Source: a virus. Taken from it: DNA of 28,078 bases. Made by a program: the position numbers and the translations under genes. Below, piece after piece: positions 23,308 through 25,494 of this stretch. Every line of letters begins with the position of its first letter. Positions within the stretch are counted from its first letter, which is position 1. Location of the stretch: the IMG/VR virus record IMGVR_UViG_3300044729_002364, positions 1 to 28,078 of that record. One strand, 5' to 3'. The notes under the pieces are model-generated. The model had not been told where the DNA came from. It was given only the letters and a program-made list of their open reading frames with translations, and did no database searches.

Positions 23308-23661
23308 TTACTTGCCCACCATAGATGGGTTGCGCTCTGCTGCGCTCAAGCTAGGCTCTGGACCTAAATCCTCCTCTGCCCATTCTTCGCAGATCATCGT
23401 TACTGGCATATCCTTCAGCCAACCATCTGCCTTGCCATTTTCGAGTAAAGCGTTAAGTTCGTAAAGGCTGTCAGGCTCTAAAAATTCGTGAACGGGAAAA
23501 GAAAGGTAAGTTTCCGGCATACCTTGCTGACGTGGTAGCCATGGCTTTACCTCTCCCTCCCCTTGCCGGATCTCAGCGGTAAGGGGGAACCGCAGATCCT
23601 TAAGTTCTGCCTCTAGCGTTGTCTCGTCTGGAATGTCGTCGAAGTTAAAAGTTCTTTCCAT
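23308..23661 (-). CDS. Unknown acidic protein, 117 residues
   Basis: MERTFNFDDIPDETTLEAEL, KDLRFPLTAEIRQGEGEVKP, FPVHEFLEPDSLYELNALLE and the end ICEEWAEEDLGPEPSLSAAE. Very acidic, a feature of DNA-mimic anti-restriction or anti-CRISPR proteins, but acidity alone does not prove that. No family recognised. Start ATG 23661 lies inside the 3' end of the overlapping small membrane-protein gene (23613-23771). An extended -10 (TGCTATTAT, near 23733-23741 minus) may serve it separately. Confidence 0.6.
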   Translation of the reverse strand: MERTFNFDDIPDETTLEAELKDLRFPLTAEIRQGEGEVKPWLPRQQGMPETYLSFPVHEFLEPDSLYELNALLENGKADGWLKDMPVTMICEEWAEEDLGPEPSLSAAERNPSMVGK

Positions 23662-23771
23662 GGTAGGAGAAGCAGGATTGCGGAAAGGAAAAGAATAGCG
23701 GAAACATGTAGGACGGCGGTAGAACCGCTAAGCAATAATAGCACGGCTGCTACCATGCTGCGCTTGTTCAT
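23613..23771 (-). CDS. Small hydrophobic protein, 52 residues
   Basis: MNKRSMVAAVLLLLSGSTAV, then LHVSAILFLSAILLLLPWKE and a polar tail. Nearly the whole N-terminal 38 residues are hydrophobic after a KR pair: two short or one long membrane segment. The ATG overlaps the stop of the 23768 gene (ATGA), the same coupling as its upstream neighbours; the 3' end overlaps the 23308-23661 gene out of frame by 49 nt. A holin-like or membrane-peptide role is a guess. Overlap with another gene makes this call tentative. Confidence 0.4.
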   Translation of the reverse strand: MNKRSMVAAVLLLLSGSTAVLHVSAILFLSAILLLLPWKELLTSTTFQTRQR

Positions 23772-24049
23772 GGGGGCGGGATCTCCAGTGGCATAAGTGC
23801 GGTGACATGAATATGGTTGACTCGGCAGCCAGATCGCTTGGCGATGTATCCCGTGAGTAAATCTACGCAGGTTAGCGGGTCAAAGCTGTCAAAGTCAAAA
23901 GAGATTGTTCCGTTCATGTACGTTTGACCTTGGCTTTCTTCCCAGAGTGTGGCTGCATAGAAAAACCATCGCTGTTTTCGGGTCGTTCGATTCTTGCTTC
24001 GTAGCCTGGAAAACGATTTCAGAAAATTGTCAAAACCTAGCTTGTTCAT
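23768..24049 (-). CDS. Unknown basic protein, 93 residues
   Basis: MNKLGFDNFLKSFSRLRSKN, RTTRKQRWFFYAATLWEESQ, then NGTISFDFDSFDPLTCVDLL and RVNHIHVTALMPLEIPPP. A basic N-terminus, an aromatic centre and strand-helix-strand C-terminal part. No family recognised. It is coupled by ATGA at both its start (to the 24046 gene) and its end (to the 23613 gene). Confidence 0.55.
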   Translation of the reverse strand: MNKLGFDNFLKSFSRLRSKNRTTRKQRWFFYAATLWEESQGQTYMNGTISFDFDSFDPLTCVDLLTGYIAKRSGCRVNHIHVTALMPLEIPPP

Positions 24050-24216
24050 GGGTCTTCTTGCGGTGAGTCAGTCAAGCGTCTGTCGGGTCGAACTTCGACA
24101 TTAAGGCCGACTGTGGTGCTAAACGCAGCAAGCTCGTCCATATCGGATTGATCCCCGTAGCAAAGGATCTTCGAGCCTGCTGGCTCGGTAAGCCAGAGAT
24201 TGAATCGTTCTATCAT
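24046..24216 (-). CDS. Small acidic protein, 56 residues, unknown
   Basis: MIERFNLWLTEPAGSKILCY, GDQSDMDELAAFSTTVGLNV then EVRPDRRLTDSPQEDP. Strand-helix-strand plan, resembling a miniature alpha/beta protein. Coupled by ATGA overlaps on both sides: its start overlaps the stop of the 24213 gene and its stop overlaps the start of the 23768 gene. The perfect chain of overlaps is the main support for it being real. Confidence 0.55.
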   Translation of the reverse strand: MIERFNLWLTEPAGSKILCYGDQSDMDELAAFSTTVGLNVEVRPDRRLTDSPQEDP

Positions 24217-24329
24217 TTACAAAAACAAGAATTGGATAGGTGTTCGGTAAAGCGTTGCGGCAGGTTGCTCTTGCCAAGCAAGCTCGCCGCCATTAAGATA
24301 GCAAGAATAACGGCGAGGAAGCGTGTCAT
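24213..24329 (-). CDS. Small secreted or membrane peptide, 38 residues
   Basis: MTRFLAVILAILMAASLLGK, then SNLPQRFTEHLSNSCFCK. The N-terminus is a basic residue followed by a 16-residue hydrophobic segment, like a signal peptide or a single membrane anchor; the C-terminal part is polar with two Cys. Start overlaps the stop of the 24326 gene (ATGA) and its stop overlaps the 24216 start. Function unknown; spanin-, holin- or exclusion-type peptides are possible. Confidence 0.5.
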   Translation of the reverse strand: MTRFLAVILAILMAASLLGKSNLPQRFTEHLSNSCFCK

Positions 24330-24424
24330 TGTCGGTTAAGTGTACTCTCGACAAAAACAATAACACAAGCTGACAGGCAAAGAAACCCTGTCAGGAATGC
24401 TAAGCATTCAAGAACTTCAATCAT
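24326..24424 (-). CDS. Tiny membrane peptide, 32 residues
   Basis: MIEVLECLAFLTGFLCLSAC followed by VIVFVESTLNRQ. One hydrophobic helix (about residues 5-26) with three Cys and acidic ends. The LSAC string resembles a lipobox, but the N-terminus is acidic, unlike a lipoprotein signal. ATG overlaps the stop of the Ala-rich protein gene (ATGA) and its stop overlaps the next ATG. Its start shares the sequence TTCGCCAATCGCCCCATG with the start region at 25086. Confidence 0.45.
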   Translation of the reverse strand: MIEVLECLAFLTGFLCLSACVIVFVESTLNRQ

Positions 24425-25086
24425 GGGGCGATTGGCGAAGGAACGATTGGTGCTTCTGCAATAAGTCTCAAAAGCAAGTCACGCTGACGCAAGCGGGCGT
24501 AGGCGGCGGCGTCGGCGTCGGCGGCAGCGGCGGCGGCGTAGGCGGCGGCGTCGGCGTCGGCGGCGGCAGCGGCGGCGGCGGCGGCGGCGGCGGCGGCGGC
24601 GGCAGCGGCGGCGGCGGCGTAGGCGGCGGCGTCGGCGTCGGCAGCGGCGGCGGCGGCGGCGGCGGCGGCGGCGGCGGCAGCGGGCCATTCTTGCCCCGCT
24701 GCCAAAAGATCCATGCCAGCGAGGACCGGTTCAATGACTGCGGTGATCCCATCTGGCTGGGGCGGTAATGACCGCAGTTCCGATGCTAAAAATTGCCATC
24801 CAACCTTGCTCAGGTCTTTATTGTCGCAGCCTACGGCGGTCGGGAACGCTGCAAAAAAGGCTTGCGCCTCTTCTAGTGGCAGTGACTCAAAGATGTTTTC
24901 AGCAATTCGCTGCAACATGATTGGTAGGCCATATTCATTTTGAACTTTGGCTGTGTCATCAGAATGCGACAAGCAGCCGATAAAGCAGCCATGGGAACCA
25001 TCCCAGTAGCAGCCTTGCTGGATTGCGTCACACTCAACATGGCGCCTAACTTCTTTTGAAAGTTGATCGAAATTCCTGGTTAGCAT
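24421..25086 (-). CDS. Phage protein with long polyalanine tract
   Basis: 221 residues from ATG 25086 (MLTRNFDQLSKEVRRHVECD); this start has the CCAATCGCCCC leader, whereas longer versions run over the 25121 gene. The first 140 residues contain GLPIMLQRIAENIFESLPLE and FPTAVGCDNKDLSKVGWQFL, matching the pattern 'GiP..LarleD.iFEgLp...a..fp..f..Ai..GaDLs.V...fl' of a widespread, uncharacterised phage/bacterial protein. Residues about 148-207 are Ala with interspersed DADAAAYA units, as in other members that end in Ala/Tyr/Asp repeats. The C-terminus is RLRQRDLLLRLIAEAP. The Ala stretch suggests a long helix. Confidence 0.6.
   Translation of the reverse strand: MLTRNFDQLSKEVRRHVECDAIQQGCYWDGSHGCFIGCLSHSDDTAKVQNEYGLPIMLQRIAENIFESLPLEEAQAFFAAFPTAVGCDNKDLSKVGWQFLASELRSLPPQPDGITAVIEPVLAGMDLLAAGQEWPAAAAAAAAAAAAAADADAAAYAAAAAAAAAAAAAAAAAAAADADAAAYAAAAAADADAAAYARLRQRDLLLRLIAEAPIVPSPIAP
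24495..24680. repeat. GC-rich trinucleotide repeat coding polyalanine
   Basis: About 185 bp of GCC/GCT-type codons (minus strand) interrupted by GAC and TAC codons (Asp, Tyr). Plus-strand sequence reads GGC GGC. All frames stay open across it, so long Gly-, Arg- and Pro-rich ORFs there are by-products. Such tracts are prone to slippage length changes. Confidence 0.9.
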
Positions 25087-25120
25087 GGGGCGATTGGCGA
25101 AGTGGTGGTTGATGTGGAAG

Positions 25121-25297
25121 TTAGTGCCAAGTGACCAGCTTGCGGACCAAGGGAATTGATCCTGCCCAGGCACCCAATACAGTCACGGGGTAGAATCCAC
25201 AACTGCCCCAGCCTTGGGCAAAGGATGATCCTGTATTGGCCCACACAAGCCTGCCGATGTAGCCACCGCTGCTTGTGATGCGGATAAAGTCGTTCAT
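25121..25297 (-). CDS. Small protein, 58 residues, unknown
   Basis: MNDFIRITSSGGYIGRLVWA, NTGSSFAQGWGSCGFYPVTV then LGAWAGSIPLVRKLVTWH. Gly/Trp-rich with beta-like first part and a weakly hydrophobic end; no family recognised. The leader CCAACCGCCCC before ATG resembles those of 25086 and 24424. It ends 34 nt before the Ala-rich protein start. Second gene of the unit started by element h. Confidence 0.5.
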   Translation of the reverse strand: MNDFIRITSSGGYIGRLVWANTGSSFAQGWGSCGFYPVTVLGAWAGSIPLVRKLVTWH

Positions 25298-25335
25298 GGG
25301 GCGGTTGGTAAAGGGATGGTTGGCGTAATTAGGTT

Positions 25336-25494
25336 TCAGTCCTGATTTTTGCCAGAGTTAAAGTCAAAGTCAACTTGAACTTTGGCAATGCCTGCCGCAG
25401 AAAGAAGAGAAATAATTGCAATCATGCTAAGTTCAAAAATGACTACTAAATCGGCTAAGGCTCCAACAGTGTCGTGAAGGGTTTGCAGGTCCAT
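25336..25494 (-). CDS. Small membrane protein, 52 residues
   Basis: MDLQTLHDTVGALADLVVIF, ELSMIAIISLLSAAGIAKVQ, VDFDFNSGKNQD. One clear membrane helix (about residues 13-36), a short N-terminal polar helix and an Asp-rich C-terminal tail. No family recognised. First gene after composite promoter h, with a 36 nt gap from -10 to ATG. The N-terminal Asp/His and C-terminal acid tail suggest a small inner-membrane protein; a role in lysis or superinfection exclusion is only a possibility. Confidence 0.5.
   Translation of the reverse strand: MDLQTLHDTVGALADLVVIFELSMIAIISLLSAAGIAKVQVDFDFNSGKNQD

Follow-up and report, generated by a model that had tools for sequence, protein, structure and literature searches.

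In Cluster K mycobacteriophages a short repeat, the start-associated sequence (SAS), is found directly before the starts of non-structural genes of different families. PMC3203893 describes it as a 13-bp sequence with a Shine–Dalgarno (SD) core, present in 11–19 copies per genome. For the phages Brujita and Island3, PMC3029335 describes gene exchange at short boundary sequences: one gene is present in one phage and absent from its close relative, the breaks fall near start codons and a short sequence is common to both. Coupling of termination to reinitiation at ATGA or TGATG overlaps is treated in PMC6728339, which gives overlapping gene pairs in cyanobacterial genomes as less than 10% and SD use in cyanobacteria as approximately 20% or less at de novo starts and 40% at overlaps. 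Lack of structure is reported to permit translation without an SD (PMC3121790). Points of resemblance to these systems were found in a chain of very small minus-strand genes in the virus record IMGVR_UViG_3300044729_002364 (28,078 bases; the whole of this stretch is called the window). Like the SAS, a repeat precedes the starts of unrelated genes of the chain, but it has no SD, is G-poor and has just three clear copies, all within a single operon. As in Brujita and Island3, single genes are present or absent; here, however, many slots of one operon are affected and the joints are at the ATG itself, several of them sharing the start codon at most. The stop/start pairs overlap as in the coupled genes, with far more overlapping pairs than the cyanobacterial genomes have. 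We read the locus as the part nearest the promoter of an early accessory operon in which exchangeable host-interaction genes surround a conserved pair, o56 and o52b, and put the probability of this reading at roughly 0.6.

Gene chain and conservation

Relatives were collected with the helicase encoded upstream of the chain, which gave 11 and then 15 IMG/VR contigs (the 11 included); o56 gave two more, making 18 with the window. The window and seven closely related IMG/VR contigs constitute a close group of eight. Three starts were reset and one spurious open reading frame (ORF) in L049 was removed from the gene-order table before junctions were compared. The features are listed in Table 1.

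An earlier note, made from the sequence of the window, had described eight minus-strand ORFs running from 25494 down to 23613, the last six joined by five consecutive ATGA overlaps. All eight ORFs were found, as were the overlaps (24421–24424, 24326–24329, 24213–24216, 24046–24049 and 23768–23771), and six of the products are indeed shorter than 60 residues (Table 1). The lower end of the chain did not stand, as a further gene, o117, begins inside the last ORF; the operon extends from the helicase side past an HNH-like gene down to at least 22123. The regularity of the overlaps, which the note had held to be beyond chance, was assessed using a gene caller without preference for any overlap length and 200 first-order Markov shuffles. 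The region contains five four-nucleotide overlaps in 11 junctions, all consecutive; the shuffles gave a mean of 0.51 and a maximum of three, with no more than two in a row. Across 17 contigs, 51 of 138 junctions in the region are four-nucleotide overlaps, compared with two of 159 on the antisense strand, and the stop/start overlaps of the chain are conserved in the relatives.

Frame-breaking changes, which the note had named as grounds for refutation, were looked for in the relatives and none were present in o32 (seven contigs), o38, o56 and o52b (eight each) or o93 (four). Length changes within frames are multiples of three (three nucleotides in o38, larger steps in o56 and o117). Pooled ratios of nonsynonymous to synonymous polymorphism (pN/pS) are given in Table 1. 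The small ORFs are real genes, most of them under purifying selection.

The element upstream of the first gene consists of TGTTAAG, a spacer of 47–50 nt and TTGTTCAAC, in the same order in 14 of the 16 helicase-bearing contigs, the gap between a −10-like hexamer and the second box being exactly 4 nt. At the mismatch limits used, the first box was not found in L057 nor the second in L059; under a looser match, 71 of 3845 random windows fitted the element. Its conservation directly upstream of the chain supports the note's proposal of common control by a composite element. Four further copies of the TTGTTCAA box are located on the minus strand ahead of other window genes (22060, 20952, 20399 and 20010). 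The composite element as a whole has five copies (20010, 20399, 20952, 22060 and 25526), each with a ACAAACTGTTAAGC-like box, a −10-like hexamer and TTGTTCAAA/C directly before a gene start. It often includes a hairpin with a T-run; at other window genes a terminator-like hairpin was seen by eye between the boxes.

Two kinds of start are present. Genes without an overlap (the first gene, o58, alaR and, in L048 and L050, also o32) have G-poor leaders, with 65–79% A+C in the close group. Local folding energies average −2.0 kcal/mol at uncoupled starts (16 distinct sequences, two of which, o117 in L052 and in L053, are artefacts of the gene caller, which missed or mis-set o52b there), compared with −5.9 kcal/mol at coupled starts (65) and −8.4 kcal/mol in random pieces. 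Overlapped genes showed no upstream sequence that is conserved across changes of neighbour. SD-like matches were present at 46 of 158 starts, compared with 18% at random positions and six of 27 other window genes; they are unevenly distributed and never occur at o56, o32 or A52a.

The genes o58, alaR and o32 are each preceded by a copy of the same linker. Three copies lie near start codons, two exact and one with three mismatches, and none of 100 shuffles reached as many; intergenic linker lengths are 34, 38, 39 and 40. The AGGAG core of the SD is not present in the linker sequences. A search of IMG/VR with the linker pattern returned 23 stretches, six of them on contigs of this group as judged by contig name. 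In the alaR of the window and of the contigs most closely related to it, the C-terminal PSPIAP is translated linker; since alaR of L053 and L054 stops before the linker, the linker probably came in together with o32.

Turnover at start codons and its interpretation

The earlier note had proposed synteny in relatives as a check. Over the 18 contigs, o38, o56, o52b, o117, the HNH-like gene and o91 recur, and between them are variable slots in which neighbours are present, absent or replaced. The slot between o38 and o56 is empty in the window, holds a 111-residue gene in L047, L049 and L051, and a 165- or 166-residue gene in L048, L050, L040 and L042. In the close group, the slot between o56 and o52b contains o93 in four contigs and is empty in L047, L049, L051 and L042. 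Ahead of the HNH-like gene are o110, f4 with o110, f8 or s34, and in L054 alaR follows o52b rather than preceding o32. Several comparisons of upstream homology could not be anchored; where the start aligns, homology upstream of the HNH-like gene, o110, o52b, o56 and o91 ends 0–3 nt before the ATG. For o56 compared with L042, in which the start region has diverged, it ends 18–21 nt inside the gene. On the other side of the joint homology often continues for 3–10 nt past the start, and for 13–26 nt in f1/f2, o110/f8 and f4/s34, so that proteins of one slot, though unrelated, can have their first residues in common. The structural genes of these phages are collinear at 91–93% identity. In this comparison (7.7 kb, seven records), G002 and G003 matched nearly whole in one block, G001, G004 and G007 matched in part and the short records G005 and G006 gave no match; the G004 match was split into two blocks, the second at 88%, and the match of one record is a short end piece.

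In the reading that we prefer, transcription would begin at the promoter-like element (25518–25580), presumably early in infection. The first genes would be started independently from their short, G-poor, unstructured leaders, and the remaining genes by ribosomes that reach the stop/start overlap straight from translating the gene upstream. Because such coupled starts would need no conserved sequence before the ATG, a whole gene could be inserted, removed or replaced at its start codon with its neighbours left undisturbed. Retention of o56 and o52b while other genes turn over is what would be expected of host-interaction genes, a role to which the place of the operon, its turnover and its lack of structural-gene character also point.

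A broader proposal is more tentative. In phages of hosts that rarely use the SD, the start codon alone might serve as the exchange joint; since reinitiation would need nothing upstream, any ORF from an ATG to an overlapping stop could be a portable unit, and new genes would enter near the promoter, each bringing the unstructured leader along as a further copy. On this view the accessory operons of these phages would evolve as bare-ORF cassettes are exchanged, and the exchange should be measurably more gene-exact than where the hosts use the SD. In the literature searched, no account was found of exchange bounded by start codons and linked to SD-poor coupling. The locus offers a clear example of viruses trading small accessory genes and a set of natural experiments, as the same start codon of o56, the HNH-like gene or o91 stands behind several unrelated sequences in near-identical phages; how little a coupled start needs, and how small accessory genes are traded, can thus be tested directly.

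Several observations count against the proposed operon of exchangeable genes. In six relatives the 3 kb following the operon vary no less than the operon itself (coverage 0.44–0.61, compared with 0.53–0.84), so that turnover is not special to the chain; the idea of a hotspot restricted to the eight ORFs was dropped on the same ground. Some genes of one slot (f1/f2 and o110/f8) share their first 4–10 codons, and therefore not every joint is at the ATG. The starts of o52b and o91 often carry an SD-like match of 4–6 nt. No relative of o58 was found among the 18 contigs, which makes it the least certain gene, and the pN/pS of o93 is 0.93, on few changes. The contigs are kin, and counts over them do not represent a sample of independent events. 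The host is inferred from few proteins.

The alternative that fares best, although improbable, is that the peptides form one membrane machine, acting in superinfection exclusion or membrane remodelling as the earlier note had suggested. The four peptides that the note called hydrophobic have 17-residue Kyte–Doolittle maxima of 2.3–2.7, compared with 1.4 for o58, 0.7 for o56 and 0.8 for o93 (alaR was left unscored). The first slot also encodes a membrane peptide in several contigs, even where the sequences are unrelated (A52a, s12 and s13), and o52b is conserved in 14–15 of the 18 contigs. The chain is enriched in small hydrophobic proteins, as the note had indicated; a single membrane function shared by all of them is not supported. 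Hydropathy, on which all membrane predictions were based, predicts no membrane protein for four of the eight products (o56 and o93, and also o117 beyond them, are not membrane-like), and no match to a family of known exclusion proteins was obtained in Pfam, PHROGs or NCBIfam. The genes are gained and lost singly between near-identical phages; their products are therefore not parts of one obligatory complex.

A lysis system, with o52b as the holin and the other peptides tuning its timing, is less probable still. The topology of o52b (two hydrophobic stretches, both ends basic) would fit a two-helix holin, and at the threshold applied none of the ORFs by the endolysin gene (13463–14935, plus strand) encoded a clear membrane protein. 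In relatives, however, o52b lies close to the helicase, with o56 and genes of the o117 type on its two sides, and no lysis family was matched in Pfam or PHROGs. The endolysin gene itself, at 13759–14298 on the plus strand, is not beside the small membrane genes but 10 kb away on the opposite strand, which makes a lysis cassette here unlikely. As half of the ORFs are moreover not membrane-like, the lysis timing proposed in the earlier note is unlikely to be the shared role.

We give equally little weight to a dedicated recombination system that moves genes as cassettes between the linker repeats in the manner of an integron. Linker copies do precede o58, alaR and o32, and o93 is flanked by two copies of a 13-bp repeat, CCCATGAACAAGC (24040–24052 and 23762–23774). 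L047 and L051 have no o58, and their joints fall at different points within the repeat, as expected from homologous recombination between repeat copies. Against such a system, most swaps (o110, f7, f1 and f8) have no more in common at the joint than the start codon or a few bases, and the chain was not found to contain a recombinase-like gene. The HNH-like protein encoded next to the chain lacks the catalytic histidines of the HNH motif (absent in 13 of 13 aligned sequences). HNH-driven homing from 22391–22969 as the cause of turnover was put aside for the same reason. That the ORFs arose by chance, in a stretch that is non-coding or coded in another way, which the very short frames and the weak support for o58 and o93 might suggest, is contradicted by conservation, gene order and overlap statistics and already refuted by conservation for o52a, o32, o38, o56 and o52b.

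Individual genes and surroundings

Table 1. Positions of genes and sequence elements in the window; pN/pS values are pooled.
Feature	Positions	Strand	pN/pS	Remarks
Helicase	25582–26988	minus	0.07	DEAH/ResIII-type; Pfam PF04851 1.9e-23, phrog_16 7.8e-71; upstream of operon; anchor for finding relatives
Promoter-like element	25518–25580	minus		TGTTAAG 25580–25574, −10-like TACACT 25536–25531, TTGTTCAAC 25526–25518
o52a	25336–25494	minus	0.13 (4 contigs)	52 aa, one predicted membrane helix; first slot
Leader/linker repeat before o58	25298–25335	minus		Ends CCGCCCC-ATG
o58	25121–25297	minus		58 aa, weakly hydrophobic; window only; intact frame and leader
Leader/linker repeat before alaR	25087–25120	minus		TTCGCCAATCGCCCC-ATG
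alaR	24421–25086	minus	0.32 (N-terminal part)	221 aa, Ala-rich; ATG at 25086, upstream GTG start also possible
o32	24326–24424	minus	0.42	32 aa membrane peptide; same length in 7 contigs
o38	24213–24329	minus	0.24	38 aa membrane peptide, polar tail; 8 contigs
o56	24046–24216	minus	0.26	56 aa, small acidic soluble protein; core gene, 17/18 contigs
o93	23768–24049	minus	0.93 (few changes)	93 aa, soluble; 4/18 contigs
o52b	23613–23771	minus	0.29	52 aa, predicted two-helix membrane hairpin, basic ends; core gene
o117	23308–23661	minus	0.36	Acidic; starts inside last codons of o52b, 49-nt overlap
o110	22975–23307	minus		Optional; slot ahead of HNH-like gene; 4/18 contigs
HNH-like protein	22391–22969	minus		phrog_99 3.9e-11; kept at this place in relatives reaching it
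o91	22123–22398	minus		Conserved; last gene followed
Endolysin	13759–14298	plus		phrog_10051

Family scans were run in batches of ten proteins (two for Pfam, one for NCBIfam and three for PHROGs), and for the small window genes nothing above chance was obtained in these databases. The conserved pair o56 and o52b are two undescribed small proteins of interest for their effects on a picocyanobacterial host. The AlphaFold model of o56 is a compact β-β-α-β fold with a predicted local distance difference test (pLDDT) score of 82. With its three strands and one helix the model shows some similarity to T7 Gp2 (4lk0_M; VIA Z 4.2, root-mean-square deviation 2.9 over 47 residues) and to ClpS (9b1p_A; VIA Z 6.0), although Z values of this size are common by chance. 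No sequence similarity to either was found, Foldseek gave E 0.25 at best, and the best match among PDB sequences (E 0.011) was an unrelated kinase-like protein; the middling structural likeness is a lead only. A profile of o52b gave matches with E ≤ 3e-18 in 14 of the 18 contigs, nine of which had gone into the profile; in L055 the match was weak (1.5e-3).

In other contigs the first slot holds membrane peptides that are unrelated to o52a or diverged from it. An alignment of six relatives divides alaR into a conserved N-terminal domain and an Ala-rich (GCC) array of variable length. It has no Pfam, PHROG or meaningful NCBIfam match; a weak NCBIfam match (7.9e-4, far under the cut-off) is within the array and was taken as an effect of composition. 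The AlphaFold model of alaR is poor (pLDDT 58). The array of GCC-type codons (24468–24690) creates long spurious ORFs, one Gly-rich on the plus strand (24397–24768) and one Pro-rich on the minus strand (24468–24752). The gene o93 was found only in this group (three loci). The middle part of o117 is swapped between phages, and its C-terminal tail, PSL-S/T-AAERNPS (23308–23400 in the window), is conserved in 11 of 18 contigs; in L056 it is carried by a 165-residue protein that differs in its other parts. In the same operon of L056, a small ORF (8910–9134) encodes an NrdR-type zinc ribbon (PF22811, 3.9e-14).

The window carries portal, head, terminase and endolysin genes. Because the endolysin is 62% identical to its counterpart in Synechococcus phage S-SRP02 and the portal is closest to that of cyanophage S-2L, the host is probably a picocyanobacterium and the virus a Synechococcus phage. 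Among named phages, 5 kb of the window had no nucleotide match and alaR no tblastn match, and no comparable chain is present in the annotation of the S-H1 helicase region or of 23.7 kb of S-2L. Bacterial genomes contributed distant helicases only (≤34% identity) among the 80 matches listed.

Elsewhere in the window, a dCTP deaminase gene adjoins a thymidylate-synthase/nucleotide-kinase-like gene (12158–13211); a dCTP deaminase-like gene was also seen by eye within the small-gene region of L011 and L012. Positions 21045–21707 match PHROGs for both a RusA-like protein and a DNA polymerase processivity factor, and the sequence resembles a sliding clamp. A direct repeat of 53 nt is located at 19026–19078 and 19452–19504, the two copies being 98% identical.

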